Assembly: GCF_000422505.1 (NCBI RefSeq)
Contig: NZ_AULX01000006.1
Location: 62,001 to 126,000 of the forward strand
DNA: 64,000 nt
Direction: 5' to 3'
Source: Paenibacillus pinihumi DSM 23905 = JCM 16419
Lineage (GTDB): Bacteria > Bacillota > Bacilli > Paenibacillales > Paenibacillaceae
The notes under the pieces were generated by a model. It made no database searches and had not been told where the DNA came from. It was given only the letters and a program-made list of their open reading frames with translations. Each line of letters begins with the position of its first letter. Position 1 is the stretch's first letter. Made by a program: the position numbers and the translations under genes. Shown here piece after piece: positions 11,622 through 29,285 of this stretch.

Positions 11622-12440
11622 TTATTCCTGATAATTCATCCGCGTCCAATAACTTGTTAATAGGAAGCTAGCCGCTAAGCTAAGGAGCAGCATTGCAATT
11701 AAGGCCATTATAGATTCACGTCCGGCGATAATATCATAAATCATTGTTAGTGCGCTAAACAAAAAATCCAGCAAGAATGGCGACAGGTACATCGCTGCAA
11801 TCAATAAGGCTACATCTGCAACGACAGCAACCGCCGTATTTTTGATCAATACAGATACAACAGCAAATACACAGGAAACTGCAGCGAATTTAATGGCGTA
11901 CAGCAAATAAAATAGACCATTAAATCCCCAGCTTTGTGCAGCGGATATGACTGTCTGATCCGGCACAAGAGTTGTTGATCCGATTTTAGGCATCAGCAGC
12001 ATTGAACAAATCTGACTCACAAAAAAAGTGCAGGCGATAATAAGAAGGTTGCTTAACATGAGGGTTATCAGCTTGCCAAGCATGATCGAACCGCCCTTGA
12101 ATGGCCTCGTCAGTACCATTCTCAGACTTCCTGCTGCCCGGTCATCTCCAATAATGATCGCCGTAAGTACAGGCAATACGATAAACACCAGCATCAAATC
12201 CAAATTGGATAGTACCGCATGCGGCAGTGTCAGCCGATCTGCATTTTGCAGGACCGGACCGTCAACAGACTGATAGTTAATTGCTGCCAGCATGGATTTG
12301 CCCAGCATAGATTCTGAACCATTGGCAGCGGCAAAGCCCAGAGACAACAACACGGTCATACAGATCGTAAATAACAGCAGTACATAAATGATTTTACGCT
12401 TAAACAGCCGATAGCACTCACTCCGAATGATGGCATACAT
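11622..12440 (-). CDS. lanG: Lantibiotic immunity ABC transporter permease LanG
   Basis: A 272-aa ABC-2 type permease with about six hydrophobic segments. The start is ATG behind GAGGAGG. The N-terminus (MYAIIRSECYRLFKRK) followed by a helix is typical of the LanE/LanG and BcrB class of short permeases. It is the last gene of a three-gene unit, F-E-G, in the same order as the nisin and subtilin immunity transporters. Known role of the family: it forms a transporter with LanF and LanE that expels the producer's own lantibiotic from the cytoplasmic membrane. A strong terminator follows. Assignment rests on topology and context; E and G cannot be told apart by motif alone, so the letters follow gene order. 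Confidence 0.8.
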   Translation of the reverse strand: MYAIIRSECYRLFKRKIIYVLLLFTICMTVLLSLGFAAANGSESMLGKSMLAAINYQSVDGPVLQNADRLTLPHAVLSNLDLMLVFIVLPVLTAIIIGDDRAAGSLRMVLTRPFKGGSIMLGKLITLMLSNLLIIACTFFVSQICSMLLMPKIGSTTLVPDQTVISAAQSWGFNGLFYLLYAIKFAAVSCVFAVVSVLIKNTAVAVVADVALLIAAMYLSPFLLDFLFSALTMIYDIIAGRESIMALIAMLLLSLAASFLLTSYWTRMNYQE

Positions 12441-12464: not shown

Positions 12465-13298
12465 TTAGTCCGTATAATCAACTTTACGTTCATGCCAGAG
12501 CGTGAGACTAATAAAAACCACAAGGTAAAGGAGAATCACCACCATAATATCCGCTCCCATGCCTTTAAGTCCCCCAAGAATTGAAGCAATTCCTGTGAAT
12601 TGCACCTGCACAATGGATGCATACAGCAAAGCATCTACTTTTAAAATTTCCAATTGATACAATACTGTAATGATCTGGGTGTACATCATGTTCAACAGGA
12701 CAAACCCGATCCCGATGCCGGCCGTCATAACCTTATTGCGGGCGATGACACTTACCCAAGCCATAAATGCCAGCATTCCAAGCATAGAGAGGTAAGCAAG
12801 AGCATAATAGCCAAATGTATACGCCCAAGCTGACCAGCCTTGAATCGGAAGATGGCTGAAAAAAGTATAAGCATAGCTCACCTTCGGCATCCATAGTTGC
12901 CCTGCCAGCCATGAAAGAATGAAACAGAGGAAAAACAGAACCAGAAAGATGCCGGAAAGCAGCATGAACTTAGCCAGCGCAATCCTCCATAGCGGATATC
13001 CTCTCATAATGATCTGCTTATAAATGCCGGACCTGCGCTCTTCGGTAATAAAGAGTGACGTATAAAATATGGCCAGCCCGTTGAAGACCAGCATAAGCTG
13101 CTCCTGAAGGACAAGATAAGGAAAGCTGATCTGCGAGGCAAAACTGGGATCATCAGGCGAAAGCCGGAAGACAAGCTGATTGTTTTTGGACAAATACAAA
13201 TAGGATAAGTAAATGAGGGCGGGTATAGTCAAAAATGAGAGCCAGAACACTTTTCTCCGGCTGAATTTAAACCATTCATGCTTTAATAGAATCAGCAC
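12465..13298 (-). CDS. lanE: Lantibiotic immunity ABC transporter permease LanE
   Basis: A 277-aa ABC-2 type integral membrane protein. The start is a GTG one base after the lanF stop, with a GGGGG ribosome site inside the end of lanF, so the two are translationally coupled. The N-terminus (LKHEWFKFSRRK) and six hydrophobic segments match the LanE/MutE/EpiE group. With LanG and LanF it should form the self-protection exporter acting at the outer face of the membrane. Gap to lanG is 24 bp. The name follows position in the operon. Confidence 0.8.
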   Translation of the reverse strand: MLILLKHEWFKFSRRKVFWLSFLTIPALIYLSYLYLSKNNQLVFRLSPDDPSFASQISFPYLVLQEQLMLVFNGLAIFYTSLFITEERRSGIYKQIIMRGYPLWRIALAKFMLLSGIFLVLFFLCFILSWLAGQLWMPKVSYAYTFFSHLPIQGWSAWAYTFGYYALAYLSMLGMLAFMAWVSVIARNKVMTAGIGIGFVLLNMMYTQIITVLYQLEILKVDALLYASIVQVQFTGIASILGGLKGMGADIMVVILLYLVVFISLTLWHERKVDYTD

Positions 13299-13299
13299 A

Positions 13300-14031
13300 C
13301 TATTCGCCCCCGGCCATTAAATGGAGAAATGCATCCTCTAAATGCCCAGTGCCACCGGCTGACAGTATGCTGTCCTTACTGCCCTGCTTCACAATCCTGC
13401 CGCGGGAGATAATGATAAAATCGTCACATAGTTTCTCGAGTTCACCGAGCAGATGGCTGGAAATAAGCATTGTAACTCCCCGCTCCCGGTTCAGTTTCAA
13501 TATAATATCCCGTATTTCTTTGGTTACAACCGGGTCCAGCCCATTCGTCGGCTCATCCAAAATGAGAATTTCAGGATTGTTCAGAAGGGCCTGGGCGATA
13601 CCGAGGCGCTGCTTCATTCCCAGTGAGTACCCCTTCACCTTATTGTGCTCCCTGCCTTGCAAACCTACTAGCGCAATGACCTCTCTAATTCTTGCGCGGC
13701 GGGTTCTCTGGTTCATTGTAGAATCCAATAATGCCAAGGCATACAGATTTTGATACCCGGTCATATAAGAGGAGAATACCGGCATTTCGACCATAGCCCC
13801 AACATTCTTGAGCGCCCTTGTCTTATCATGAATCGGAATTCCACTGAGCTTAACGGTCCCGCTACAGGAAATCAGTCCCGTCAAAATGCGGATCATAGTC
13901 GTCTTCCCGGCTCCGTTAGGCCCGATGAATCCAGTAATACTATTCTTTTTTACTGTGAAGCTTACATTATTCAATACTTGCCTTCTGGATAGTGTTTTGC
14001 TTACGTTCTCCACTTCAATGATTCGGCTCAT
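13300..14031 (-). CDS. lanF: Lantibiotic immunity ABC transporter ATPase LanF
   Basis: A 243-aa ABC ATPase. Walker A is GPNGAGKTT near residue 38, the signature is SLGMKQRLGIAQAL, Walker B is EILILDEPTNGLDP, and the switch His is in SSHLLGELE. At the Q-loop position it has Glu (GAMVEMPVF) instead of Gln. This 'E-loop' is the diagnostic feature described for LanF immunity ATPases and separates it from ordinary drug exporters such as BcrA. It starts the immunity unit and is cut off from lanK by a terminator at 14105-14132, so it probably has its own promoter. Function by family: energises expulsion of the mature lantibiotic. Confidence 0.88.
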   Translation of the reverse strand: MSRIIEVENVSKTLSRRQVLNNVSFTVKKNSITGFIGPNGAGKTTMIRILTGLISCSGTVKLSGIPIHDKTRALKNVGAMVEMPVFSSYMTGYQNLYALALLDSTMNQRTRRARIREVIALVGLQGREHNKVKGYSLGMKQRLGIAQALLNNPEILILDEPTNGLDPVVTKEIRDIILKLNRERGVTMLISSHLLGELEKLCDDFIIISRGRIVKQGSKDSILSAGGTGHLEDAFLHLMAGGE

Positions 14032-14155: not shown

Positions 14156-15583
14156 TTAGACTTCCGGTGCAATGCCAGAATTATCAGACGGCTCGATAAT
14201 ATAAAAATCGACAACAGCCCCGCCATGAGGAGCATTCCATGCTTTTATTTCTCCGCCAAAGTTAGTCACAATCCTTTTGGCTATGTACAGCCCAAGTCCA
14301 AAATGATCTTTATAATAGGCCTCCTGGTACATTGCATCAAACAGGGCTGTTGTATCCTCCTGCTTAAAGCCTTCGCCTGTATCCGTGCAGCGGAAACAGA
14401 TTTTGGAGACGCTGCTGTTCAGAGGTTCATCATGCACCTCCAGCCTGATTTCTCCAGTTCGTGTAAATCGCAGACTGTTATAAAGCACATTATCCAGTAC
14501 CCGGACCAGCATAGATTCATCGAGCATAAATATAGGTTTGCTCAAGTGAATGCTGAACCGGATCGTCAAGCCCTTTAAATGAGCCATAGCCGTAAATTCT
14601 CTCTTTTTGTCTAACAGCATCTGTTCAAGTTTGACAGGCTCATCATGCAGTGCGAAGTCCACTTTCTCCACTTTATACAAAATGACCAGGTTATTCGTCA
14701 GATTAACCATCTTGTTGCAGCTGCTTTTAATGGTCTCAAAATGCTTTTTGATACACATTTTGGAGTCCAATAACTGTTCCATCAGCTCTACTTGCCCTTT
14801 AATAACGGTAATTGGGGTGCGGATATCATGCGCAATGGATTGAACCATCATGCTCCGCTCTTTTTCCATCATATGAAGATTTGTGATCGCCTCCTTTAGT
14901 GAGGTGACCATTGCATTGAAGGATTCACGTATTACGTTGAATTCCTTCCCGTTCATTTCAGCAAGGGCAACATTCAAATTCCCGGTCGCAATATCTTCCG
15001 CTCCTTGAAGAAACAAAGAGATATTTTGCGACATCCTCCGGTACAGCTGCTTGGTAAAGAGAACAAGATACACAATAAAGAAGAGAACTGGAGACAAGAT
15101 GAGAAATACGTATAGAGTCACAGACAAAGGATGATCCTTATAATTGTTTAAGACATAACCAAAAGGGGCCTTGAGCAAATATATTCCCTGCAGAGTCTTG
15201 TCCTGCATAATCGGAATATAACGGTAGACATAGCTGCTCCTGACAATCTCCTTGTTGAGGTTCTTCCATAAGTCAAACTCTGATCCGTTTATTATTATAT
15301 CTCCGTACAGGTGATTGCCGGAAAGGTCCAATACCTCGGCCTGAAGCTGATTGGACATAGAGCTTAAATCCGGCAGCCGGCCCCCCATAATCGCATCTCC
15401 TTGATCTCTTACCAATTTCTCAATCGTGTCAAAATATTTCGCATAGTAATCCGTAGACTTTGCTGTATCGCTGAAAATGAAGAGAATTAGGAGCACGTAG
15501 GCCACAACAGTAGAGAGGATTGTAAAGCCCACTACTTTGACAACAAGCAAATAAAAATCATGCTTGAGCGTCCGATGCTTCAT
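14156..15583 (-). CDS. lanK: Lantibiotic sensor histidine kinase LanK
   Basis: A 475-aa membrane kinase. I use the ATG at 15583, which overlaps the lanR stop as ATGA. Two membrane helices (about residues 15-37 and 140-165) bracket an extracytoplasmic sensor of about 100 aa, the NisK/SpaK layout. A HAMP-like linker follows, then the H-box SIAHDIRTPITVIKGQ with the phosphorylated His, the N-box RVLDNVLYNS, and G-boxes DTGEGF and GLGLYIAKRI. Known role of the class: it senses the mature lantibiotic outside the cell and phosphorylates LanR, making production self-inducing. It is the last gene before the terminator. Confidence 0.85.
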   Translation of the reverse strand: MKHRTLKHDFYLLVVKVVGFTILSTVVAYVLLILFIFSDTAKSTDYYAKYFDTIEKLVRDQGDAIMGGRLPDLSSMSNQLQAEVLDLSGNHLYGDIIINGSEFDLWKNLNKEIVRSSYVYRYIPIMQDKTLQGIYLLKAPFGYVLNNYKDHPLSVTLYVFLILSPVLFFIVYLVLFTKQLYRRMSQNISLFLQGAEDIATGNLNVALAEMNGKEFNVIRESFNAMVTSLKEAITNLHMMEKERSMMVQSIAHDIRTPITVIKGQVELMEQLLDSKMCIKKHFETIKSSCNKMVNLTNNLVILYKVEKVDFALHDEPVKLEQMLLDKKREFTAMAHLKGLTIRFSIHLSKPIFMLDESMLVRVLDNVLYNSLRFTRTGEIRLEVHDEPLNSSVSKICFRCTDTGEGFKQEDTTALFDAMYQEAYYKDHFGLGLYIAKRIVTNFGGEIKAWNAPHGGAVVDFYIIEPSDNSGIAPEV

Positions 15584-16269
15584 ACCGGGTTTTCCCACCT
15601 GTAGCCCAGTCCATACAGTGTTTTAATATAATTATGGTTCGGATCACATTTTTTAATTTTTTTACGAATATTTTTAATGACTTCTGTGACGGATTCATAG
15701 CAGCTTGTAGAATCATTTCCCCAAATACGTTCGAACAGATCCTCTTTGGTAAATGTCCTTCCCTTATGCGACACTAAAAACTTAATGACCTGAAATTCCT
15801 TTTTGGTCAAATATAGCGAGCCTGTTGGAGTTAGTAATATCTTCTCTTCCAAATCGATAGCAAGCCGTCCGGCAACCAGTCTTGACGATATCTCGCTTCC
15901 CTTCATTCGTTTGTCGCGGCGGATATGGCTTTCAATTCTTGCCTTCAGCTCGGCAAGACTGAACGGCTTTGTTATATAATCGTCCCCACCAATGGACAGC
16001 GCCTTTATTTTATCCTCTTCCAAAGATTTTGCGCTTAAAAAAAGAATCGGACTTTGCACCTGATCCCGAATCCGGCTGCACAGCCCCAATCCATCGAGGT
16101 CCGGCATCATGACATCCAAAATAATCAAGTCATAAGTCGTTGCCGGCAGCACACGAAGCGCATGGTTGCCGCTATTAACCGTGACAACCTCATATTGATA
16201 AATTTCAAGATATTGCTGAATCATGGTACAAATATCCTCGTCATCATCTACCACAAGCACCCGATTCAT
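15580..16269 (-). CDS. lanR: Lantibiotic response regulator LanR (OmpR family)
   Basis: A 229-aa protein with a receiver domain (acidic pocket VDDDED, phospho-Asp in LIILDVMMPD near residue 52, conserved Lys in DYITKPF) and an OmpR/PhoB winged helix at the C-terminus (LTKKEFQVIKFLVSHKGR, GLGYRWENP). Its ribosome site GGAGGTG is the last codons of lanC, so translation is coupled. It should activate lanA and probably lanF. Candidate sites are the palindrome at 22939-22953 and the repeats at 14066-14087. Confidence 0.88.
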   Translation of the reverse strand: MNRVLVVDDDEDICTMIQQYLEIYQYEVVTVNSGNHALRVLPATTYDLIILDVMMPDLDGLGLCSRIRDQVQSPILFLSAKSLEEDKIKALSIGGDDYITKPFSLAELKARIESHIRRDKRMKGSEISSRLVAGRLAIDLEEKILLTPTGSLYLTKKEFQVIKFLVSHKGRTFTKEDLFERIWGNDSTSCYESVTEVIKNIRKKIKKCDPNHNYIKTLYGLGYRWENPV

Positions 16270-16272
16270 TGT

Positions 16273-17586
16273 TTAACACCTCCGTAGCAAAAAGGCAGCA
16301 TCCCATGGCGTCTTTTTCCCTTTGTATATAGCAAGCAGGGCAAGCACTGCCCCGGCTGCGCCGTCGATAAGCCCGACATTATGGTATTGCTTCATGTCCT
16401 CCTGATTCCTCTCTAATGTCTCAAAACCAAAGGGCGTATCTTCCCTGTACATGGATATGACCTGTTCGCCAAGAAGAAAACTCAGCTGCAAAAACTCCTC
16501 ATCATCAGTCTCTTCATAAAAGCGGTGCACGATATAAGCGAGGCCTGATAATCCATGGCAAAATGTGGGGCAGTATATTTCTTTTTGACGGCGGGCCGCC
16601 TGCTTCATTGCACGAGTAGCCAATAGAATATAATGCTCTTCTTCCATAAGCTTTCCTGCTATTAGCAAAGAATAAGCGACCCCGGGAGAACCATAGCACC
16701 ATGCATCTCTGGTATACCTGCCTGTTAGGTTGCCACTATTATATTCTTGCAGAGAAATGTGTGAACCCCAAAATATTTCATCCTCAGATTCGATCCGATG
16801 CTCCACCAAAAATTGTGCAAGTTTGCGGATGCATTCATTCTGGCCCGGCTCGTTAATTCCCACGCTGTGCGCTTGGCACAACGTAATTAAGAGAGAAGGG
16901 ACGCCGTGGGATAATCCGATATTAAAGCAGCCCTCAGGCCAGCGCTGTGCATCCCGCGGTGAGAATTGTTTCTCTGAGGAAATGTACCAGCCGGGAATTG
17001 CCTCGCTGTTTAATTGTTTGTCCCGGCATACGTAAAGAAGGCACTGGATAATCTTCCGGCTTGCTTCGTACATAGCAGGGTCCTGGTGAAATAGCAGCGT
17101 ATACGCGGTAATCCCTGTGATGCCGGAGATCGGATCGTAATCCCCCATGCTAATATCGTCTTGCCCGCGAATATGCTCCAGATGCTCATCAATGCGTTCC
17201 GTGATAATTGCATTCAAATTAGCGATGAAGGAGCCGTAACGCTGTCCTTGCCTGGAGACACAGACCGAAGCAAGAGCGACACCGGCAGCCCCGCTGAACA
17301 TGGAGAGCGAATGAATGCCTTCCTCCTGTAAATGCCGGCCAATCCGCTGCATGTATTGATGGGCGATACGATCCCAATCCCGATCCGGGTAATGTTCGTT
17401 CATCTCCCCATATAGCATACAGATTGCAGGCAGACCGTGGCTTAATGCTAATTCGTGAAAGGGGTTGACCAATCCTTCTCCCGTGTCTATAAAATTCCCT
17501 TTTTCATTCACAACTTCTAATATGTTCTCGTAATTTTGAAGCTTGTCTGCAACACTAGCAACAATCTGATCTACAGCTTCATGCAT
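16273..17586 (-). CDS. lanC: Lanthionine cyclase LanC
   Basis: A 437-aa LanC cyclase. The zinc ligands are visible as Cys297 (WCYGSPG) and Cys343-His344 (FCHGLSG), separated by the same 46 residues as in NisC. His227 (LSHGVP) and Asp151 match the catalytic His and Asp positions of that enzyme. The (alpha/alpha)6-barrel Gly-rich repeats (SGAAGVALA, SGITGITAY, SPGVAYSLL, GAAGAVLALL) are present. Reaction: addition of Cys thiols to Dha/Dhb residues of LanA to form (methyl)lanthionine rings, likely in a membrane complex with LanB and LanT. The start ATG overlaps the end of lanT by 8 bp and uses AGGAGG within lanT. Confidence 0.93.
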   Translation of the reverse strand: MHEAVDQIVASVADKLQNYENILEVVNEKGNFIDTGEGLVNPFHELALSHGLPAICMLYGEMNEHYPDRDWDRIAHQYMQRIGRHLQEEGIHSLSMFSGAAGVALASVCVSRQGQRYGSFIANLNAIITERIDEHLEHIRGQDDISMGDYDPISGITGITAYTLLFHQDPAMYEASRKIIQCLLYVCRDKQLNSEAIPGWYISSEKQFSPRDAQRWPEGCFNIGLSHGVPSLLITLCQAHSVGINEPGQNECIRKLAQFLVEHRIESEDEIFWGSHISLQEYNSGNLTGRYTRDAWCYGSPGVAYSLLIAGKLMEEEHYILLATRAMKQAARRQKEIYCPTFCHGLSGLAYIVHRFYEETDDEEFLQLSFLLGEQVISMYREDTPFGFETLERNQEDMKQYHNVGLIDGAAGAVLALLAIYKGKKTPWDAAFLLRRC

Positions 17587-19414
17587 CCATGAACTCCTCC
17601 TGCTTGTAACCGGTTATTTTGGCCCGCTCCAACTCATGCATTTCCTTGTACAAAGATACAGATTCCAACAACTGCTCGTGTGTGCCTTCCCCGATGATTT
17701 CTCCCTGATCCATGACAATGATCCGATCGGCTAGCATAGCTGTAGATAGACGATGGGAAATAAAAATGCCGATTTTATCCTTAGTCATTTGCAGGAACAT
17801 GTCAATAATCTGTTTTTCTGCTACAGGGTCGAGCGCTGAGCTGGGCTCATCGAGGATGTACAGCGAAGCGTCCCGGAAGAAAGAGCGCGCTATCGCTACT
17901 TTTTGCCATTGACCGCCTGAGAATTGCTTGCCTTCATTAAACCATAGTCCCATTTGGGTATCGGGGTCACTCACAAAATCAACGCGTGCCTTCGATAACG
18001 CACTCCGAATTTTAGCTTCGTCATTCATTGAATCAATCTGGCCAAAGGCTACATTTTCCCGTAAGGTTAATTCATACTTTACAAAATCCTGAAACAACGC
18101 CGCGACACACGCTTGAAGTTGCTTCGTATCATAATCGTTAATCGAATGGCGATTGTAATGAATCATGCCATCGTTGACCTCATACATTTTTAAGAGCAAT
18201 TTTACGAGTGTGCTTTTACCTGAACCATTCGTGCCTACAATTGCAATTCGCTCTCCCTTTCGAAAGCTCAGATTAATATTTTTAAGAACCTGTGTATTGG
18301 AGGAAGGGTAAACAAAGGACAAATCATAGATATCAATTTGCTCAATGTCTTTAATAGAATGCAATCCGGGTTGCTCCGGCTTGTTCTCCTCCATAGATAA
18401 AAAATCGAAAAGCTGGCTCATATATAAATGATTCTGATATAGGGTGTAAATGGAAGTGATAATCGACTTGGAGTTGCTCTGAATCAGACCAAGCGCCTTA
18501 ATATAGCCCACCACAGTCCCGATAAGAATCTCTCCGAGATACGCGGAGTATATAATGATAAACAATACAATACCCGAGCAAACTTGTTCGATGAATTCAA
18601 ACAAGGCGGTAAACAGCGTCCTCCGCTTCAATAAAGTGATATCCTGCTTGATAATCGTTCGATTGATACGCTCAAACTTCTTCAAGACATAGCTGGAGAT
18701 GCCGTACAGCTTGATCTCCTTGAAGGTAATATCTTTGGTAAGCAAATAGGTAAGATACCAGCTCTTTCTTCTCTCAGACGTACGCTGCAATTCCACAAGG
18801 TACTCCCGCTGCCCGATCCGAAAAAAATAAGTGGAAAACATGAGCGGGATCAGAAGCAGAATTAGGAGTGTCCAGGGTTTCCAGTTAAACAGAATGACAG
18901 CCGAAGACACAAGTGTAATCGCTGCCGTGATGAGTGCAATGATCATCTGGAATATCTGATAGGGCCGATAGGCGACTTCACTTTGCACCCTCTGCAGCTT
19001 GTCATAGATTTGAGCATCTTCGAAATGTTTTAGAGACAGCCTGCTGCATTTTTCCATAATGCTGAAATTAATTTTGAACTGGAGAATCGGCTCGAATTTC
19101 CCTTCCACATAACTCTTGATATTGGCAATCACATCACTATACAGATGAAGTCCCATATAGATACCGAAAGCCCATATAATAGCATGGAAAGAACCGGATA
19201 TAATCATATTCAACAAATACTGTGACCCCAACAAAGTCAAAATCGGAGAGAAACCTGCCAGCAAGCTGAGCAATATGATCAAATAAAAATTCCGCTTATT
19301 GGAAGAAGCGACCAGCTTCAATGTTTTGGGAAGAAGCCGCATCGTCTCCCGAATATCCTTCCAGGTTACACGATCGTTTACCATTCCCGTGTCTTGGGTT
19401 GAATTTTCGCTCAT
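17579..19414 (-). CDS. lanT: Lantibiotic exporter LanT (ABC transporter)
   Basis: The product is 611 aa from the ATG at 19414, 29 bases after the lanB stop; the frame could extend to 19498 inside lanB but without a better ribosome site. Six membrane helices lie in residues about 40-320. The ATPase has Walker A GTNGSGKSTL, signature FSGGQWQKVAIAR, Walker B LYILDEPSSALD and switch His ISHRLST. There is no N-terminal C39 peptidase, so this is a class I exporter like NisT: it moves the modified precursor out with the leader still attached. Removal of the leader must be done outside by another protease, since no lanP gene is present here. Confidence 0.9.
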   Translation of the reverse strand: MSENSTQDTGMVNDRVTWKDIRETMRLLPKTLKLVASSNKRNFYLIILLSLLAGFSPILTLLGSQYLLNMIISGSFHAIIWAFGIYMGLHLYSDVIANIKSYVEGKFEPILQFKINFSIMEKCSRLSLKHFEDAQIYDKLQRVQSEVAYRPYQIFQMIIALITAAITLVSSAVILFNWKPWTLLILLLIPLMFSTYFFRIGQREYLVELQRTSERRKSWYLTYLLTKDITFKEIKLYGISSYVLKKFERINRTIIKQDITLLKRRTLFTALFEFIEQVCSGIVLFIIIYSAYLGEILIGTVVGYIKALGLIQSNSKSIITSIYTLYQNHLYMSQLFDFLSMEENKPEQPGLHSIKDIEQIDIYDLSFVYPSSNTQVLKNINLSFRKGERIAIVGTNGSGKSTLVKLLLKMYEVNDGMIHYNRHSINDYDTKQLQACVAALFQDFVKYELTLRENVAFGQIDSMNDEAKIRSALSKARVDFVSDPDTQMGLWFNEGKQFSGGQWQKVAIARSFFRDASLYILDEPSSALDPVAEKQIIDMFLQMTKDKIGIFISHRLSTAMLADRIIVMDQGEIIGEGTHEQLLESVSLYKEMHELERAKITGYKQEEFMDA

Positions 19415-19443
19415 AAGGCTTCCCGCTTTCTCAAGCTTTTTGG

Positions 19444-22400
19444 TTAAGCGCGGACCAAATGCTGATAATATTTTTGCAGCGCATACAGCGTATGACATGC
19501 CAGTGCCCGTAGCTTATCCTCCAGTTTCCGGTCAATACCAAACAACCGGTTACAATGCATATGAAGCAAACTATCTACGATTGCCCACGGGTGCGTGGAC
19601 AATTGCTCCGTATTGTTATGGATCAGGCGGCTATAGCTTTGTACAGCCATTGTTCTCTCATCCAATATTTCCAGCATCAGTTCCCCTTGGGACAACTGCC
19701 TCATTTCCTTCCAGTTATCGATCGGATTGCATAACTTCATAAGTTCGGAACGATGGGCCTTGAACGAATCCCTGTAGTCGCCCTGATCGACCTGGGCGGA
19801 CAAAAATTCGAGCATCATCGCACTATCCCACCCCCACTGCTCCATAAACCGGATGAGTACGGCCGTACCCATGACTTCATTGGACCAGTCGATATGATGC
19901 TTGCGTGCTTGAATGAGCTTCTCCGCAACAACACTATCCTGACAAAAGACATGTTCGGCAGCGTCTATGAAATCCGCTCCCCCATAACGTTCGAGCTCCC
20001 GATCATAGCAGTCGATGACAAAATGACTGATAAGCCCTTTATCCATCAAGGAGCGCAGCCAATTCCGGATAACCGGAAAAGCCTCCTGCAACCGGCCGGA
20101 CTGCCCCCGGAGCCTCAGACGGATATGAGGCTTCGGGTCCGCATAACGAATATAAAAGTGCTCTTCTACAAGTCCCCGCTCTGTCAAGCCCTGCATAGCC
20201 TCTTGAAACTGGTACCCGATTAATTCCTCTTCTCTGGACCTCGCCCCGTAAAGTTTAAGGTAGAGCCACTGCTCAAAAGGAAGCTGGAGCCGCTCAGGCG
20301 ACCGGCTTGAAATCTCTTGCAGGCGATAATCAGACAGGACAGGTGCCGGTTTTTGCATTCGTGGCTGATGCACCTTTACCATCGGAATAATAATCTCCCG
20401 GACATAACGCTCTCCGGATATGTTATGCCTGTCATCCAATAGCGGCTCACAGGCGGTCAGACTCACACCCGTTTGCTGGTTTGTAAATTCATGATAGAGA
20501 ATGCGCAGACTTTTATCGTCTTCTAAATGAATAAGCACACGATTATCACCAGATGTAATATACACAAGCCGAGGTACACGAAACTTGGTACGGTAGCCTG
20601 AAAAAGCTTCCTTAAAATGCTCAAAGCTGCTTGTCTTGCCAATAGGTATAAAAAGAGAGTGAAGAAGCCACCTCTCTGGGGCAAGGATAAAACGGCCATA
20701 TTTAATGCCTGGAGTATAGGGAACATTCTGAAAAACGATTTCCCAAGGAATATTATACCATTTCCGTTCTCCTTCCAGGCCAATATCATGCAAAAAACGA
20801 ACAGAATTAGGTGCAATTTGAGGATTTAACATATTATGAAAGTAAAAAGCAACTTTTTTGTTCAGACGTTTGCTTTTGGCATAAAAAACAGAACCTTCCA
20901 CTCCAATCACAATATCATCCAGCGACAATGCATGAACACTATCTCTCGAATTATTTGTAAATAGCGCCATCTCATAATCGTTCCCATGTATATTCCGCGT
21001 TACATTGGCATGACGCAGCTCATTAGGCAAATAGGAGACTTCACAGCTAACATATTCATCCCGATCCGTAACCAAATGATATCTTTCTTTCAGCGTTTCG
21101 AAGAAAGCTTCAGGAGTATTCATAATATGTGAGAACCGTCCAAAGCTCTTCCCTGCTTTAGTTGCTCCAACATTTGGTCCCAGACAATACTGATATTCAC
21201 CTGAATGATTCTTCATAACCATCAAGTTAATATCCAATGATTGTGGAAGTTCTTGATAGGGGCAACCCGATAGTCCAAGGGAATCAATCTCATTATCTTT
21301 AAGCTCAATATAAGGATCCCGTTGAAGGAGTGCCTCTGCATACTTGTTCCAGAGATAGGCCTGCACCTTGTCATCCAGTATCCGTTTAACTCCGCTTTCA
21401 GTCCTTAAGCTGGGCGGATTTGTATATGTAAGCGGAGCGCCAATCCCTAAATCCTCATCGATCATTTCCAGAAGCGGGATCTCACGGCCTTCTCCGTACT
21501 TTTCAATGAAATCTTGACGATAACTATTCATTGGAGTACTTGCCTCTTCTGCGGGTGGAGACAGCTTCAGCAACATCTCTATTAAATGACTGACATCCTT
21601 GGAGACCGCAGCATCGAGTTGAATTTGCTCTCCTTGCAGTGCCAAATCTACCTGCAATGGCGTTGCGGATAATGCAACTTCATTCATCATTTGATATAAG
21701 TCCAGATAACTCTGCTCGCCAGAGCCAAGGGGCGTGCGGTTGTATGCCTCAATCTGCCGTGCAATCATTTTCAGCTGTTCTACAATATCTTCCTCTCCAA
21801 CAGTTGACTGCAGCTGCCGAATAAGGTAGTCGAATTGATTCAATACAGTGAGCGGCGGCCTAATATTGGATATCAGATATTCTTTCTCGATGAGCTCAAG
21901 CAAAAAGGAATGCATTTTCTCTTCGGTAATACCAGCATAATGTTCCATTAAAAGCTGTTCGAGCTGCTGGAATGGCACAGGCTGCCCGGCAGCCTCAAAA
22001 ATCAGCAAACAAGCCTTCGTCGCCCGGATATTGACTTCCTGAACTTGCTTAATTTCTTCCTTCAGTGTAGAGTGCGGCAGAACTACACGGTCGCCTTTTA
22101 TAAAAATGCTTGAATTCCTCGAATATTGAAGATGGGATGCGTAATCCAGTTCAATTTGCTTGACTACTTTCATCAGCCATTGCAGATCAGGCCTTGCTTT
22201 TTTTGCATAGGAAGCATGTGCCGGCCAAAGTGAGTTACCCTCTGCCATGCGTCCAAATCCTACACCGGAGAAAAGTCCGAATGGAGTTGGGCGGGTACTC
22301 ATGCGAATGACATACTTATATAGTGAATTGAGAAATTGTTCTTTCTTTTTAATTGTTTTACCTTCAGCAAAGCTATTCATCGTCTCATACAGATTCTTGC

Positions 22401-22572
22401 TGGCAACAAGGATGCTCTCCCGAATAACCTGATCCCTGCACCACCCCTGAATAACATGAGCTGCGTCTGCGCCCGTCACATTCGGATCAAAAAAATTAGC
22501 ATGCACCGAGAAGGGCAATATAGCGGACCGAAGCATGAACGTCCCGGTGTCCTGAAACAAAGTATCACCCAT
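19444..22572 (-). CDS. lanB: Lantibiotic dehydratase LanB
   Basis: The 1042-aa full-length class I dehydratase, close to NisB in size. Residues 90-101 read RMSTRPTPFGLF, and Arg90, Arg94 and Thr96 have the spacing of NisB glutamylation residues Arg83, Arg87 and Thr89. The C-terminal elimination domain (about residues 750-1035, SpaB_C type) carries the conserved FYIRYADPKPHIRLRLRG segment. Reaction: Ser/Thr of LanA are glutamylated using glutamyl-tRNA(Glu), and glutamate is then eliminated to give Dha/Dhb. The start ATG has an AGGGGG site 7 bases upstream. It lies 155 bp after lanA, behind a stem-loop that may limit readthrough. Confidence 0.93.
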   Translation of the reverse strand: MGDTLFQDTGTFMLRSAILPFSVHANFFDPNVTGADAAHVIQGWCRDQVIRESILVASKNLYETMNSFAEGKTIKKKEQFLNSLYKYVIRMSTRPTPFGLFSGVGFGRMAEGNSLWPAHASYAKKARPDLQWLMKVVKQIELDYASHLQYSRNSSIFIKGDRVVLPHSTLKEEIKQVQEVNIRATKACLLIFEAAGQPVPFQQLEQLLMEHYAGITEEKMHSFLLELIEKEYLISNIRPPLTVLNQFDYLIRQLQSTVGEEDIVEQLKMIARQIEAYNRTPLGSGEQSYLDLYQMMNEVALSATPLQVDLALQGEQIQLDAAVSKDVSHLIEMLLKLSPPAEEASTPMNSYRQDFIEKYGEGREIPLLEMIDEDLGIGAPLTYTNPPSLRTESGVKRILDDKVQAYLWNKYAEALLQRDPYIELKDNEIDSLGLSGCPYQELPQSLDINLMVMKNHSGEYQYCLGPNVGATKAGKSFGRFSHIMNTPEAFFETLKERYHLVTDRDEYVSCEVSYLPNELRHANVTRNIHGNDYEMALFTNNSRDSVHALSLDDIVIGVEGSVFYAKSKRLNKKVAFYFHNMLNPQIAPNSVRFLHDIGLEGERKWYNIPWEIVFQNVPYTPGIKYGRFILAPERWLLHSLFIPIGKTSSFEHFKEAFSGYRTKFRVPRLVYITSGDNRVLIHLEDDKSLRILYHEFTNQQTGVSLTACEPLLDDRHNISGERYVREIIIPMVKVHQPRMQKPAPVLSDYRLQEISSRSPERLQLPFEQWLYLKLYGARSREEELIGYQFQEAMQGLTERGLVEEHFYIRYADPKPHIRLRLRGQSGRLQEAFPVIRNWLRSLMDKGLISHFVIDCYDRELERYGGADFIDAAEHVFCQDSVVAEKLIQARKHHIDWSNEVMGTAVLIRFMEQWGWDSAMMLEFLSAQVDQGDYRDSFKAHRSELMKLCNPIDNWKEMRQLSQGELMLEILDERTMAVQSYSRLIHNNTEQLSTHPWAIVDSLLHMHCNRLFGIDRKLEDKLRALACHTLYALQKYYQHLVRA

Positions 22573-22642
22573 TTACGATCCCCCTCTATTATTGCGTATT
22601 GATTAACCTTTGCATGACTGCTTCTTTTTCTCGTATAACTTT

Positions 22643-22688
22643 AGAAGGTACAAAGACATCCGGTTAATGGATACTCTTCGTACCTTCT
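22643..22688 (-). promoter_or_regulatory. Stem-loop between lanA and lanB
   Basis: The minus-strand RNA can form a stem of nearly 20 bp: AGAAGGTAC pairs with GTACCTTCT and pairing continues inward with G-U and mismatches. There is no T tract, so it is not a full terminator. Similar structures after lanA in other lantibiotic operons give high lanA and low lanBTC expression by partial termination or RNA processing; that role here is inferred from position. Confidence 0.6.
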
Positions 22689-22726
22689 ATTGTCGATTAC
22701 GCTATGTGTTTATAAGACCTTAAAAA

Positions 22727-22894
22727 TTAACACTTAATACAGGAATGGGAAATTTCACAACCCTTGGTAAAACACATGAGAACACCTGTGATACAGCCAG
22801 GGGTACAAAGGCTTTTGCTCGTAATTTTCGGTTCAATCTTACCTGCGGAAGTCTTAATTTGCACATCCAATTCGAAATCATCCAAGTTTGCCAT
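22727..22894 (-). CDS. lanA: Class I lantibiotic precursor peptide LanA (nisin/geobacillin-like)
   Basis: A 55-aa precursor directly upstream of lanB. It starts at ATG 22894 behind GAGGAG. The 23-residue leader contains the class I recognition box FELDV (residues 7-11) and ends in EPK. The core of 32 residues starts ITSKSLCTPGC, the hallmark of the nisin group, and has six Cys (core 7, 11, 18, 23, 29, 32) and eight Ser/Thr. By nisin spacing rings A (Ser3-Cys7), B (Thr8-Cys11) and C (Thr13-Cys18) are expected, with Thr2 and Ser5 left as dehydro residues. Pairs Thr20-Cys23, Ser26-Cys29 and Ser28-Cys32 would use all remaining Cys. Rings A/B form the lipid II pyrophosphate cage in nisin, so the product is expected to target lipid II. 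Core 12-18 (ITGVLMC) matches geobacillin I as I remember it; the C-terminal half differs from peptides I know. Confidence 0.95.
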   Translation of the reverse strand: MANLDDFELDVQIKTSAGKIEPKITSKSLCTPGCITGVLMCFTKGCEISHSCIKC

Positions 22895-23222
22895 TTGTAT
22901 CAATCTCCTCTACAAAATGATTTATATAATCATTGAATAAATCTGATAGATTTGCCCATTATCAGCCACTCAATGAGTATACACAAAAATACTATAATTT
23001 CCATTAGAACCAATTAAATTACTTTATAACAAAATAATAGTTTGTAAATCTAAGGAATTTATAATATTCGGGTATTTTTATATAAAAAGTACATAAGTTT
23101 AAATCTTTATTTTGCCGATACAATAACTAGGGATTAGAAATATGAAATTTATTTTCGGATGTAATTATGGAATTATATAATAAATATGAAAGCAGGATCA
23201 TAAGGTTTAGAGGATATTTTGG
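22895..23222 (-). promoter_or_regulatory. lanA promoter region with palindromic operator
   Basis: This very AT-rich 328 bp holds no gene. On the minus strand a -10 TATAAA (22921-22926) lies about 27 bases before lanA. The -35 position is not a sigma-A hexamer; instead a perfect palindrome AAATCT-GAT-AGATTT covers it (22939-22953). Promoters of nisA and spaS also lack a -35 and carry the LanR box there, so this is the likely LanR target. The rest, 22954-23222, shows nothing I can name. Confidence 0.5.
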
Positions 23223-23336: not shown

Positions 23337-24515
23337 TCACACAGCATCAATTGTATACGCACTCTGCTTTCTCACAAATCGCTCCATCCGCTCCAGCGCC
23401 TTATCGAGTTGCTCCGGCGCCACCGAATAGGAGCAGCGGATAAAGCCTGCACCGCCTTCACCGAAAACGGTACCCGGTACGACACCCACTCCCATTTCCT
23501 GCATGAGCTCTATTGCAAACTGTTCAGATGTAAGTCCGGTACCCGTGATGGAAGGAAAAACATAAAACGCCCCCTCTGGCAAATGGCAAGGCAGTCCGAT
23601 ATCGCGCAGTCCTTGAACGAAGCTGTTTCTGCGTTGCTCATAAGCAGCAATCATCCGGTCCTTTGCCTCAATGCCGTTGCGCAGCGATTCCAAGGCTGCA
23701 ATCTGCCCGATCGCCGGTGCGCACATGGCCGTGTACTGATGAATTTTGAGCATGGCTCCGATCAGTTCGCCTTGTCCGCAAGCATAGCCGATCCGCCAGC
23801 CTGTCATCGCGAATGCCTTTGAGAAGCCGTTGATGACAATCGTCCGCTCCATCATCCCAGGCAGCGATGCAATACTGACATGCTTGCGTCCGTACGTAAG
23901 CTCACAGTACACTTCATCAGACAGCACGATCAGATCGTGCTCTTTGATCACTTCAATTACCGGAAGCCAGTCCTCATGCGTCATGACAGCTCCTGTCGGA
24001 TTATTCGGGTAATTGAGCATTATGATTCTCGAACGCGGCGTCAATTGCGCCTTCAATGCTTCTGCCGTAAGCTTGAATTGCCGGTCAGCCGATGTCGGAA
24101 CCGGGACCGTCTTTCCTCCATTAATCGAGACAATCGGGGAGTACGCAATATAGCTTGGTACAGGAATCAACACCTCATCTCCCGGGCGGATAAAGGTCCG
24201 CAGCGCCAAGTCCACAGCCTCACTCGTCCCCACTGTAACCAGCACCTCGCTGCCCGGCTCATAGCGAAGCCCCCAGCTTTGCTGCAAGTAGCGCGCGATC
24301 TCCTCACGCAGCTCCACAATACCGGCATTAGAGGTATACTTGGTAAAGCCCTCATTCAAGGCACGAATACAGGCATCCCGGACATGCTCGGGCGTTACAA
24401 AATCCGGCTCTCCTACGCCAAGTGAAATCGTGTCCTCGCCTTTCAGATCAAAAAAAGCGCGTATTCCTGATGGCGGTATATCCCGTACAAGCGGTGTAAT
24501 CCATTCGTTAGCCAT
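23337..24515 (-). CDS. PLP-dependent aminotransferase, class I/II (PatA-like)
   Basis: A 392-aa fold-type I aminotransferase. Visible motifs are NYPNNPTGAV (substrate/PLP binding), VLSDEVYCELTY (Asp to the pyridine N), and NGFSKAFAMTGWRIGYACG with the Schiff-base Lys; RCSYSVA carries the carboxylate-binding Arg. The N-terminal SLGVGEPDF is typical of the PatA/YugH branch, which acts on aromatic or aspartate-type amino acids. It starts inside the end of ddl (8 bp overlap), so translation is coupled. Linkage to a D-Ala ligase and a MocR regulator suggests a role around alanine or cell-wall amino acid supply; that is inference. Confidence 0.85.
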   Translation of the reverse strand: MANEWITPLVRDIPPSGIRAFFDLKGEDTISLGVGEPDFVTPEHVRDACIRALNEGFTKYTSNAGIVELREEIARYLQQSWGLRYEPGSEVLVTVGTSEAVDLALRTFIRPGDEVLIPVPSYIAYSPIVSINGGKTVPVPTSADRQFKLTAEALKAQLTPRSRIIMLNYPNNPTGAVMTHEDWLPVIEVIKEHDLIVLSDEVYCELTYGRKHVSIASLPGMMERTIVINGFSKAFAMTGWRIGYACGQGELIGAMLKIHQYTAMCAPAIGQIAALESLRNGIEAKDRMIAAYEQRRNSFVQGLRDIGLPCHLPEGAFYVFPSITGTGLTSEQFAIELMQEMGVGVVPGTVFGEGGAGFIRCSYSVAPEQLDKALERMERFVRKQSAYTIDAV

Positions 24516-25503
24516 GACTCAGCACTCCCTGATTCTCGTTAGACTTGCCGTTGCCAGCTGTCTTTTCTGTATTCGTATCTTCCACTGAATCTGCGGCTTT
24601 TTGAACTTTGTCCAGAGATAATTGAATAATCCGGTCAAGCAGACTGCTGTAAGTCATACCGGCCGCTTCTGCACTTTTAGGCAGCAGACTTGTTTTCGTC
24701 ATTCCCGGAAGCGTGTTCACTTCAAGCACATAAGGAATTCCGTTTCTTAGCATCATATCCACACGGGCGTAGACACTGCATTTCAACGCACGATAGCTGC
24801 CCAGCGCCGCGGAATGTACCCGTTCATGAACCTCAGCTGGCAATTGGACAACTTCTTCCAATGCTCCGCCTTCCTCATACTTGGCTGAAAAATCGAACCA
24901 GTCCGAGCCATTCGCCTGAATGCGAATAATCGGCAGCAGCTCCCCGTCTATAACGGCACAGGTGATCTCTTCACCCTGAATAAATTGTTCAATCATGACC
25001 TCTGTATCCCAGCGGAAAGCGTCCTCGACCGCTGCCCGCAATGCTTCGCGATTTCTCACAATATGGGTTCCAATGCTGGAACCGCCGGAATTCGGCTTAA
25101 CCACGACAGGGTAGCCCAGTCTCTCGACCGCTTCAGCAGAATAATCGCTTATGCTGCTCCAGCACAGCCAGTCGGCAGTGGAAATGCCTTCGACGCGAAG
25201 CAGCTTTTTCGACAAGTCCTTGTTCATGCAAATACTGCTGGACAATACGCCGCTGCCTGTATACGGGATGCCCATTGTTTCCAGGGTGCCTTGAACGGTG
25301 CCATCCTCTCCGTAGGAGCCGTGCAGGGCCAGCAGAGCCAGATCAAGACCTTTTGCTTTCTCGGTCAGCTCTTCGCGGCTCGTGATGTCGATGGGAATCA
25401 CTTCATACTTGCTTCGGTCCAGATTCGCCAAAATTCCTTTGCCCGATTGAAGCGATACCTCACGCTCTGATGATACCCCGCCCATAATAACTCCGATCTT
25501 CAT
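24508..25503 (-). CDS. ddl: D-alanine-D-alanine ligase
   Basis: A 331-aa ATP-grasp ligase. I use ATG 25503, which has AGAGGTG 6 bases upstream; the GTG at 25512 lies inside that site. Motifs are GGVSSEREVSL at the N-terminus, LHGSYGEDGTVQG, KPNSGGSSIG in the ATP loop, EEITCAVI, and the metal/substrate region EVNTLPGMTKTSLLPKSA. The omega-loop Tyr of AKYEEGG is kept, consistent with D-Ala rather than D-lactate specificity. The C-terminal tail of about 30 residues is polar and probably disordered. It makes the D-Ala-D-Ala end of peptidoglycan precursors. It is the second gene of a three-gene unit, 12 bases after the regulator. Confidence 0.92.
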   Translation of the reverse strand: MKIGVIMGGVSSEREVSLQSGKGILANLDRSKYEVIPIDITSREELTEKAKGLDLALLALHGSYGEDGTVQGTLETMGIPYTGSGVLSSSICMNKDLSKKLLRVEGISTADWLCWSSISDYSAEAVERLGYPVVVKPNSGGSSIGTHIVRNREALRAAVEDAFRWDTEVMIEQFIQGEEITCAVIDGELLPIIRIQANGSDWFDFSAKYEEGGALEEVVQLPAEVHERVHSAALGSYRALKCSVYARVDMMLRNGIPYVLEVNTLPGMTKTSLLPKSAEAAGMTYSSLLDRIIQLSLDKVQKAADSVEDTNTEKTAGNGKSNENQGVLSHG

Positions 25504-25515
25504 GTTAAGCACCTC

Positions 25516-26964
25516 TTATCCCAGTAATGTTTTGGCGATTTCGCCGATCATCTTGATTCCTTTGACAATATCCTCATCCGTTACGCGGGAGAAGCCCAGC
25601 CGCATGGTGTTCTTGCCCCGTCCATCCGTGAAAAATATATCCCCCGGTGTAAAAATGACCCCCTGCTCCGAGCATGCATCCAGCAGCTTCCGGGTACTGA
25701 AACCTTCCTCAAACGTCACGAACAAATGCAGGCCGCCATGGCCAGAAACCTCTGCGAACGGAATATATTCCTTGCAGCTTTGCATCGTTAATTCATATTT
25801 GCGCTTATATTCCGCGCGCGCGCGCTTTAAATATTTCTCCAAATTCCCGTTGTGCAAGTATTGAAACAATATAGACTGATCCAATGTGGAGGTATGAATC
25901 GTACGCGCTCTTTTCATGCTTTCCAAGTACCCGATCAATTCCGAGTCCGCGAGTACCCAGCCGACCCGCAGGCCCGGGAATAATACCTTGGAGAAGCTCC
26001 CCAAATAAATAACGTTGTTGCCGCTGCCCGCCGCGGCCATGATCGGCGCTACATGAGCCCCGCTGTAACGAAGCTCCTCATTGAAGCCGTCTTCAATGAC
26101 CGGAATCCGGTATTCGTTCATCAGGCGCATCACTTCCTGGCGCTTCTCGGGCGACATGACAATCCCCGTCGGATTGTGGTAAGAAGGCACCAGATAGGCG
26201 CAATCATAGGCTTTTGTAGACAATGCCCGTTCCAGCTCTCCAATATGGATGCCATCATTCTCCATTGGAATGCCGGTAATCGCGAAGCCATGCAGCTTCA
26301 GATTCTTGATCGCTGTATTATGGGTCGGATTCTCACACAGCACTCTGCCGCTTCGTCTGCCCAGCGCTGACAGCACGATATCGATCCCTTCCGTAAACCC
26401 GTTGGTGATCAGAATATCCTTGCCCTTCAAATCGACACCCTTGTGCTCCATATAGTTAAGCAAATAATCGATCAGCGGCTTGTAGCCTTTGGCATAGCCG
26501 TAGTTGAGCAGGATATCCCCTTCTACGGACATCCTGTCCATGAATGCCCGCTTCACATTGCCAAGGTCAAACAGTTTCTCATCCGGTGCAATACTTGTAA
26601 AAGAAATCGCCCCTCTGTGGGCGCTTATACCGTGCTTCATCAGGTCCAGCTTCTCAGCCAAGCGGGCATGATCGCTAATACGGTCCTTCCAATCAATCCG
26701 CAGCGACTGGGCGGCCGTTCCGCCGGAAGCGGCTGCAACAAAGCTGCCCTTCCCCTGAATCACATAAGTAAATCCGTCATCCTCCAGCTCGGCGTAAGCG
26801 GAAATGACCGTATTGCGGCTTACCTTCAACAGCCCGCTCAGCTCGCGGGTGGAAGGCAGTTTCTGGTAGGGCTGCAGAGCCCCTTTTATAATTAAACGTT
26901 TGACGTAATCTTTCACTTGTATATAAACCGGCCGATCGTCTACCGGCTTAAAGTCATTAAACAT
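25516..26964 (-). CDS. MocR-family regulator (GntR wHTH plus aminotransferase fold)
   Basis: A 482-aa protein. Residues 1-75 form a GntR winged helix (VKRLIIKGALQPYQKLPSTRELSG, SRNTVISAYAELE). The remaining 400 residues are a class I aminotransferase-like domain with SYHNPTG and the PLP-Lys motif GSFSKVLFPGLRVGWV. MocR regulators sense PLP and an amino acid ligand. A MocR-type regulator called DdlR controls ddl in Brevibacillus, so control of the downstream ddl is a sensible reading here. Unlike the usual divergent arrangement, the regulator is the first gene of the same operon. A terminator-like hairpin stands just upstream of it. Confidence 0.88.
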   Translation of the reverse strand: MFNDFKPVDDRPVYIQVKDYVKRLIIKGALQPYQKLPSTRELSGLLKVSRNTVISAYAELEDDGFTYVIQGKGSFVAAASGGTAAQSLRIDWKDRISDHARLAEKLDLMKHGISAHRGAISFTSIAPDEKLFDLGNVKRAFMDRMSVEGDILLNYGYAKGYKPLIDYLLNYMEHKGVDLKGKDILITNGFTEGIDIVLSALGRRSGRVLCENPTHNTAIKNLKLHGFAITGIPMENDGIHIGELERALSTKAYDCAYLVPSYHNPTGIVMSPEKRQEVMRLMNEYRIPVIEDGFNEELRYSGAHVAPIMAAAGSGNNVIYLGSFSKVLFPGLRVGWVLADSELIGYLESMKRARTIHTSTLDQSILFQYLHNGNLEKYLKRARAEYKRKYELTMQSCKEYIPFAEVSGHGGLHLFVTFEEGFSTRKLLDACSEQGVIFTPGDIFFTDGRGKNTMRLGFSRVTDEDIVKGIKMIGEIAKTLLG

Positions 26965-28127: not shown

Positions 28128-28940
28128 TCAAACCGAAATAATCTGCATGCAATTCCGAATTTCCTGAACGGCTGAAGGCTGGCGCCATTCTCTCCGGTAA
28201 CCCAAACAGGCACAGATTAGCTCTATTCCATGGTAGTCCAGCTTTTTTCTGTAATGCACATGGCCCATGATGCCATACCTCACCTCGTATTTCCTGTAAA
28301 GCTCCGCATATTCCGTGCTGCCGAGGAAAGCGTTGAAATATTCCCAGACCGGATGAGGCGTCGGAACTTTGAAATGGGAATGTGACAGCATGTGCGTCAC
28401 CATAATAACCGGCTTGCCGCGGTATGCTTCCAGCTCGTTCTCCAAACGCTCCTTAAAATACTGGTGCACATCGCGATTGCTCATTCCCCAGTTGACCCAA
28501 TGGCCGTCATGCCACATCCTGTCCATTGCCTGCATTTGATCAAATTGCTCCGTGCTATACTTGCTGTCCCCCATTGTGTAGTCGTACCAACCTGAGCTCC
28601 CAATGACAACCCAGCCGTTATCCAGTTCAAATGGACGCTCGCACAAATTCCCTTCATACGTCTGAAACTGCTTGTACACCTGCCATGTATCTTTAATGCC
28701 ATTAACCTTGCTCCAATAATCATGATTGCCCGGAACAAACAGTACAGGTATTCCGGATTGAGCCTTAAGCGAAGAAAGGACCGCAAGGCTGCGATTGACA
28801 TCATTGGAGATATCTCCGGCAATAATTAAAGCGTCAAGCTTGTTCTCATTCGAAACCTCAAGCAATGCTTCTTCTATTGAAGGTCCGTCAGCCGCTTCAT
28901 TTATATCTACGTGCAAATCCGAAATCACACCAATGTTCAT
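28128..28940 (-). CDS. Calcineurin-like metallophosphoesterase, copy 1
   Basis: A 270-aa enzyme of the calcineurin-like superfamily. I use ATG 28940, placed 6 bases after GGAGAGGA; an upstream in-frame ATG overlaps that site. The metal-binding motifs are all present: SDLHVD, IAGDISND, PGNHDYW, VTHMLSH and MGHVHYR. No signal peptide is seen, so it is cytoplasmic. Substrate unknown; relatives hydrolyse phosphoesters of nucleotides or lipids. It is closely similar to the gene at 29286-30107, and each copy has an antisense-RNA locus on the same side, which points to a tandem duplication. Confidence 0.85.
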   Translation of the reverse strand: MNIGVISDLHVDINEAADGPSIEEALLEVSNENKLDALIIAGDISNDVNRSLAVLSSLKAQSGIPVLFVPGNHDYWSKVNGIKDTWQVYKQFQTYEGNLCERPFELDNGWVVIGSSGWYDYTMGDSKYSTEQFDQMQAMDRMWHDGHWVNWGMSNRDVHQYFKERLENELEAYRGKPVIMVTHMLSHSHFKVPTPHPVWEYFNAFLGSTEYAELYRKYEVRYGIMGHVHYRKKLDYHGIELICACLGYRREWRQPSAVQEIRNCMQIISV

Positions 28941-29002
28941 GGCATATCCTCTCCCCATCTTCTTGCCTGAATGATTTCCGGCCCGCCCGTAAGTTTCACA
29001 GC

Positions 29003-29193: not shown

Positions 29194-29199
29194 CTCGAT

Positions 29200-29229
29200 A
29201 GTATATCACATTTTCTGGAAGCCTTCCAA
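29200..29229 (-). promoter_or_regulatory. Promoter of antisense RNA copy 2
   Basis: TTGGAA and TATACT are 18 bp apart, the same spacing as in copy 1, with TG one base before the -10 (TGATATACT). The promoter is better conserved than the surrounding DNA, so the RNA is probably still made. Confidence 0.6.
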
Positions 29230-29285
29230 TTGAGTAAAGACACCATGATGAACGATTGCCATAAAACTCACTGCGTCTGCCGGAG

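Follow-up and report, generated by a model that had tools for sequence, protein, structure and literature searches.

Introduction

Nisin, a point of reference for the peptide described here, has five rings, with ring C formed by T13 and C19. It ends in a crossed pair of rings, contains a three-residue hinge and is produced by lanBTC, RK and FEG type genes together with NisI and NisP (PMC10257480, PMC9889658). Geobacillin I has seven cysteines and seven rings, four of which are interlocked at the C-terminus (PMC6165006, PMC9889658, PMC11251773); it is described as an active antibiotic (PMC6165006) and, according to a review, does form pores (PMC8868475). Maddinglicin also has seven cysteines, with four rings predicted to be intertwined. 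Its ring C is shorter than that of nisin, its cluster is described as lacking LanI, and it has been argued that without hinge and LanI the peptide probably does not form pores (PMC9889658). In the maddinglicin dehydratase MadB nine residues are essential, six for glutamylation and three for elimination, and R161 and R182 contact the leader in the MadB complex (PMC12241602); the zinc and acid/base residues of the cyclase MadC number five (PMC9889658). A survey of NCBI (June 2018) with the pattern SxSLCTPGCxTG gave the 18 candidates of Table 1 in PMC7507342, where three geobacillin-type cores (RL3, RL5 and RL9), carried by the nisin leader and supplied to the nisin machinery, gave no detected dehydration and no activity.

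Here we analyze a 64,000-nucleotide stretch of the Paenibacillus pinihumi genome, referred to throughout as the window, in which an initial annotation had pointed to an undescribed-looking lantibiotic precursor. The locus is real, intact and under selection, and judged from its sequence it is likely to be a working class I system, of geobacillin I/maddinglicin descent and with a predicted six-ring product.

Materials and Methods

Rings were predicted with the rule of PMC11251773, by which, starting from the C-terminus, each Cys is joined to the nearest free Ser/Thr at least 3 residues before it; its authors count 92 correct predictions among 100 known peptides, and it misassigned one multiply crossed peptide. 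Before the trees of LanB and LanC (29 rows each) and LanF (27 rows) were built, matches covering less than 70% of the query were excluded. One of 30 rows was dropped for LanB (L013, truncated; L and G handles are ours), two of 31 for LanC (L014, the same record as L010, and the distant L020) and nine of 36 for LanF, namely L008, L010, L011 and L017, because the match was the LanT ATPase, L012 and L013, near copies of L009, and the distant L015, L020 and L057. The LanF of geobacillin I itself is not in its locus and is absent from the tree. In the family search for lanA up to 16 candidates were scored per genome, and 31 of the 32 places found were examined (one had no locus). Selection was evaluated over the 55 sense codons of lanA, window against its nearest relative, L003 (Paenibacillus bouchesdurhonensis Marseille-P3071).

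Results and Discussion

The Gene Cluster

Features of the cluster are collected in Table 1. The genes follow the order A-B-T-C-R-K-F-E-G on one strand, every one of them open and with the expected Pfam domains, so that the complete lanBTCRK and lanFEG set headed by lanA in the initial annotation is borne out, as are, by translation, the leader with its FELD box (residues 7-10, the FxLD-type box of the gallidermin/nisin class I family) and its EPK end. The 55-residue product itself is a class I lantibiotic precursor, matching NCBIfam TIGR03731 (gallidermin/nisin) with E 2.1e-15 and 56.5 bits (cut-off 29.3) and exceeding the cut-offs of NF038155 (20) with 23 and of Pfam Gallidermin (21) with 28.8. 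A DNA pattern for the leader box was tried and abandoned, its 4 matches in the window not exceeding the chance level (mean 2.57) and lanA not being among them.

Table 1. Features of the lantibiotic cluster in window coordinates
Feature	Position	Strand	Remarks
lanA, precursor gene	22727..22894	minus	55 aa + stop (TAA); translation and profile matches
Leader peptide MANLDDFELDVQIKTSAGKIEPK	22826..22894	minus	23 codons; FELD box, EPK end; cleavage site placed by aligning relatives
Core peptide ITSKSLCTPGCITGVLMCFTKGCEISHSCIKC	22730..22825	minus	32 codons; 8 Ser/Thr and 6 Cys
AGAGGAGA, likely lanA ribosome-binding site	22904..22911	minus	read off the sequence
Strong hairpin between lanA and lanB	22642..22689	minus	whole stretch -31.8 kcal/mol, z -5.9
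lanB, dehydratase	19444..22572	minus	1042 aa; catalytic residues intact
lanT, exporter	17579..19498	minus	Pfam matches; true start probably internal, about 19414 (comparison with L003)
lanC, cyclase	16273..17586	minus	zinc ligands intact
lanR, response regulator	15580..16269	minus	profile matches
lanK, sensor kinase	14156..15598	minus	profile matches
lanF, immunity ABC ATPase	13300..14031	minus	best NCBIfam match TIGR03740
lanE, immunity permease	12465..13298	minus	ABC2_membrane_4; role by position and L003
lanG, immunity permease	11622..12440	minus	ABC2_membrane_4; role by position and L003

The match of LanF to TIGR03740 reaches 202.8 bits, under the curated cut-off of 309.75. A C39 peptidase domain is absent among the Pfam matches of LanT, and lanP is absent from the cluster; a genome search with Peptidase_S8 gave 8 matches, 0 of them on the contig of the window, so that removal of the leader probably falls to a secreted protease encoded elsewhere. 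With LANC_like the genome gave a single match, the lanC of the window. No lanI was recognised in the cluster with the profiles used, which included none for LanI. A 92-aa TTG-started frame beside lanG (11138-11416, plus strand) was considered for this role and rejected, since no lipobox was seen by eye and there is no Pfam match. This small membrane protein has relatives in 30 of 394 family genomes, its own included, and among the 30 only its own recurs in the list of 26 genomes with lanA; with relatives so scattered and one lanA genome among them, we judge that the protein is not tied to lantibiotics.

The hairpin between lanA and lanB is probably an attenuator or processing signal; such hairpins often set the lanA:lanB transcript ratio. 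Its stem, AAGGTAC(G/A)AAG...CTTTGTACCTT, is common to the window and L003, where the hairpin has -29.0 kcal/mol and z -5.0, and the same region in L007 and L011 folds better than shuffles (z -3.5 and -3.7). Upstream of lanA we found no clear common 9-mer to suggest a shared regulator box, beyond AT-rich and ribosome-binding words.

The Core Peptide and Its Predicted Rings

The annotated match of core residues 12-18 to geobacillin I (L011) proves to be part of a wider identity that covers residues 2-18, and with maddinglicin (L006/L007) residues 1-18 are identical, the order A, B, T, C, R, K being common to both clusters. Geobacillin I also has the same ring C size and belongs to the same LanB/LanC group, and its core is one residue longer than that of the window. 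Applied to geobacillin I, the bridging rule returns SCSCSCSSCSCSCC, equal to the published code, with three crossings. For the window core the rule predicts six rings, S3-C7, T8-C11, T13-C18, T20-C23, S26-C29 and S28-C32, and thus the code SCSCSCSCSSCC with one crossing; this code was not found in the main text of PMC11251773. It had been claimed that residues 3-18 follow the nisin ring A/B/C spacing, and for rings A (S3-C7) and B (T8-C11) they do. Ring C, predicted as T13-C18, does not: L017 and L022 have the nisin-type T13-C19, which spans one residue more, and the shorter length is that found in geobacillin I and maddinglicin. With six Cys and this ring C the core falls outside nisin proper; rings A and B, the predicted crossed C-terminal pair and the lanBTC, RK and FEG genes are nisin-like, the longer ring C, five rings, hinge, NisI and NisP being nisin's own. 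Loss of up to eight waters, as anticipated, is the correct upper limit for a core with 8 Ser/Thr and 6 Cys, and with eight dehydrations the monoisotopic mass computed from the core is about 3218.5 Da.

The change in the tail is best seen against the 32-residue cores of Pallidibacillus pasinlerensis and a Bacillus coagulans MAG (L004, L005), which have the T20-C23 spacing and, except for C26, the Cys positions of the window. These cores retain S22-C26 and S25-C29 and hence have seven rings by the rule, compared with six for the window. Relative to the equally long Pallidibacillus core, S22 is replaced by G, S25 by I and C26 by S, so that the donor (S22) and the acceptor (C26) of ring E are both missing, and the new S26 can, by the rule, take over from S25 as donor for C29. 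All geobacillin-type cores compared have seven Cys; the window core has six and one Ser/Thr fewer. Because five other core types of the group have seven Cys, we infer a loss in the branch of the window. A hinge may be formed by E24-I25, the linker that separates ring D from the crossed rings.

To a more far-reaching reading we give about even odds: a Paenibacillaceae branch of the geobacillin lineage would have lost one of the four interlocked C-terminal rings in a coordinated manner, with Ser22 changed to Gly, Cys26 to Ser and the new Ser serving as donor for the next Cys. What was a rigid block would then consist of an isolated ring, a linker of two residues and a crossed pair like that of nisin, giving a natural topology of six rings, intermediate between geobacillin and nisin, in which a new hinge lies further along the chain.

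Lineage of the Modification and Immunity Proteins

The closest solved structures come from maddinglicin biosynthesis, MadB (9g04/9g05) for LanB with E 4.4e-293 and MadC (8byk) for LanC with E 5.4e-150. By alignment LanB keeps 9 of 9 essential MadB residues and both leader-contacting arginines, R161 and R182 in MadB numbering, and LanC keeps 5 of 5 zinc and acid/base residues of MadC. The β-hairpin of MadC (391-402) aligns to LanC without a gap, most of its residues being different; the MadC authors suggest that this hairpin is linked to interlocked rings, yet state in the same discussion that no firm connection is possible (PMC9889658).

The biosynthetic enzymes are of the geobacillin I/maddinglicin lineage. 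In both the LanB and the LanC tree the window pairs with P. bouchesdurhonensis (100/100). The LanB pair lies inside the geobacillin/maddinglicin group (97/99, 11 rows including two other family genomes), and so does the LanC pair (94/97, just below 95, 9 rows), there nested in an 11-row group (95/92). Two family genomes, L058 and L060, have long-branched LanB and LanC placed within or next to the geobacillin group, and their precursor tails differ. LanF branches elsewhere. The maddinglicin, Parageobacillus and Pallidibacillus proteins lie in a 13-row clade (99/98) that excludes LanF of the window and L003; these two group, with weak support (82/70), with the LanF proteins of five other family genomes, and the immunity genes may thus have been exchanged. 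The locus thus shares with the geobacillin I/maddinglicin group rings A and B, the shorter ring C and the LanB/LanC clade, and departs from it in having neither seven Cys with four interlocked rings nor a LanF of the same clade.

Relatives and Distribution

Eighteen related loci were found in a scan in which each species was represented by a single genome. The nearest, L003, has a precursor 89% identical to that of the window and a core that differs by I30V alone; it is followed by the precursors of Pallidibacillus and the Bacillus coagulans MAG and by those of maddinglicin type (L006, L007) and geobacillin type (L008-L014). Residues 19-32 had been called unlike any known nisin-group peptide, which holds against the characterised peptides compared and fails for P. 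bouchesdurhonensis. The leader is identical to two family leaders at 13 of 23 positions, to that of maddinglicin at 11 of 23 and to that of geobacillin at 9 of 23; a mismatch in ancestry between leader and core was considered and set aside, the leader being too short to press the point.

In the genus 1 of 7 genomes matched lanA, the source's own, and in the family 26 of 394 (E <=0.001, 32 places). Among the 31 places examined the window core is present only in the source and in P. bouchesdurhonensis (G047, whose coordinates are those of L003); by eye, two of the others are subtilin-like and the rest of other class I types. An order-level sample gave matches in 25 of 392 genomes, overlapping the family search and adding four genomes with other cores, and in the sampled class 5 of 398 genomes matched at 1e-10. 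Of 41 genomes in the family to which one geobacillin carrier belongs, 6 matched, at 12 places; 9 of these are full-length, each a geobacillin-type precursor with seven Cys, and 3 are partial. With LanC, 8 of 148 sampled family genomes matched at E <=1e-60, including the source; none of the others exceeds 36% identity, and P. bouchesdurhonensis is not among the matches listed. A plasmid collection gave 35 matching records, in none of which a single place covered 80% of the precursor. The best-ranked row has 54.8% identity over 73% of it, and 12 records lie at 60-80% identity, none of them among the best 20 of the 35. In IMG/VR viral contigs 23 stretches fit a pattern, with 0 relatives of lanA. 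Extra geobacillin-type lanA copies, some identical and some frame-split or partial, occur in geobacillin-group genomes (L009, L013, L111/L113, L124), and a class-level relative has four lanA-like tandem matches, evenly spaced by about 185 bp (G671:C21:45211-45860; L109, L112, L114, L115).

Within the searchable literature the peptide is, as suspected, undescribed. A full-text search with four core fragments found the new tail in no paper, bearing in mind that strings split by spaces in tables, as in Table 1 of PMC7507342, can escape, and matched only PMC7507342, for the shared SKSLCTPGCITG part; the window core is absent from the 18 candidates and from bagelicin in Table 1 of that paper. Searches over the main text of mostly open-access papers brought up no description of the core or of its P. 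bouchesdurhonensis twin, and we regard the novelty of the core as provisional. As read from the sequences, the tail, the predicted number of rings and, probably, the topology set the peptide apart within the known geobacillin/maddinglicin group, and one other species carries a near twin.

Selection on the Core

The P. bouchesdurhonensis cluster has the same A, B, T, C, R, K, F, E, G set in the order F-E-G-A-B-T-C-R-K, with FEG upstream of lanA where the window has it downstream of lanK, and its neighbours differ from those of the window (by eye, a signal recognition/RimM/TrmD-like stretch). Outside lanA the proteins are 57-75% identical: LanB 57%, LanC 58%, LanG 59%, LanE 63%, LanR 64%, LanK 66%, LanT 72% and LanF 75%. 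Between the two lanA genes 36 of 55 codons differ, 30 synonymously and 6 with an amino-acid change, distributed as 20 and 1 over the 32 codons of the core and 10 and 5 in the leader. The core has a dN of 0.013, dS not being computable with 20 of 32 codons silently changed. With a 20:1 ratio of silent to replacement changes where LanB and LanC are only 57-58% identical, strong purifying selection acts on the new tail, and the core (31 of 32 residues identical), the most conserved part of the cluster, argues for a product that is used.

Proposed Pathway and Alternative Explanations

From these data a pathway may be proposed in which LanB would use glutamyl-tRNA to dehydrate as many as eight Ser/Thr, LanC would close six thioether rings and LanT would export the peptide with the leader still attached, an unlinked secreted protease then cleaving after EPK. 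The mature peptide would be sensed by LanRK and the producer protected by LanFEG. The product would carry rings A (S3-C7), B (T8-C11), C (T13-C18) and D (T20-C23), followed by crossed rings E (S26-C29) and F (S28-C32). As in nisin, the first two rings would recognise the pyrophosphate of lipid II; the membrane would be the site of action of the crossed pair, which E24-I25 separates from the other rings.

The alternative that deserves most attention is the same lantibiotic with another C-terminal connectivity or incomplete modification, for example S26-C32, or S28 or T20 left undehydrated with one Cys free or in a disulfide. The ring pattern is a prediction and the rule fails on some crossed peptides, so this carries some weight, but C29 lies one residue past S28, leaving S26 as the sole near donor given the small rings of class I peptides and S28 for C32, and L003 retains every donor and every Cys despite the 20 silent core changes; we consider such a departure unlikely. 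Still less probable is that the peptide serves mainly as a signal for LanRK. The presence of LanRK within the operon would fit, as would the fact that no lanI was recognised, yet lanFEG-type transporter genes are present, and the SKSLCTPGC segment is identical in geobacillin I, an active antibiotic (PMC6165006).

That the gene is decaying, its product no longer useful after loss of a ring, might be read from one Cys and one Ser/Thr fewer than in geobacillin-type cores; the low core dN and silent divergence between clusters whose LanB proteins share just over half their residues, the open gene set and the intact catalytic residues make it very improbable. A chance open reading frame, for which only the length of 55 codons would speak, is refuted by the family match, the position and the 89% identical homologue in a like cluster, and we give it practically no credence. 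For the favored reading, a working six-ring lantibiotic, the failure of RL3, RL5 and RL9 with the nisin enzymes means that activity should not be taken for granted. If it holds, the locus would represent a natural experiment in which the ring number of a class I lantibiotic has changed without breaking it, through paired loss of donor and acceptor and reuse of a donor. Near relatives of the peptide have solved LanB and LanC structures, and comparison with geobacillin I and maddinglicin would test the role of interlocked C-terminal rings in stability and pore formation and whether the MadC β-hairpin bears on interlocking.

Genomic Setting

Two matches in the genus relative G006, one to the aminotransferase gene on one flank of the cluster (75% identical) and one to the gene for a 1754-aa protein on the other (69%; one internal stop), lie 407 bp apart. 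This is an empty site, and the cluster was therefore either gained in the source or lost in G006. Among the 6 other genus genomes G006 alone has it; the remaining 5, with a flank missing, matches on different contigs or likely paralogues, do not decide. The cluster has a GC content of 44.5%, compared with 49.3% for the window.

Adjoining the cluster, an aminotransferase, a D-Ala-D-Ala ligase and a GntR/aminotransferase regulator stand in a row (23337-26964, minus strand) that resembles a D-alanine supply module; copies of the aminotransferase are 83% (G005) and 75% (G006) identical, neither genome having a lanA match. The 1754-aa protein of the other flank (5178-10442, minus strand) has no Pfam match at 1e-5 and is found in 5 of 7 genus genomes, its own included. 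Two adjoining similar genes at 28128-30107 (minus strand) appear to be a tandem duplication, the first a metallophosphoesterase by Pfam and the second by eye.
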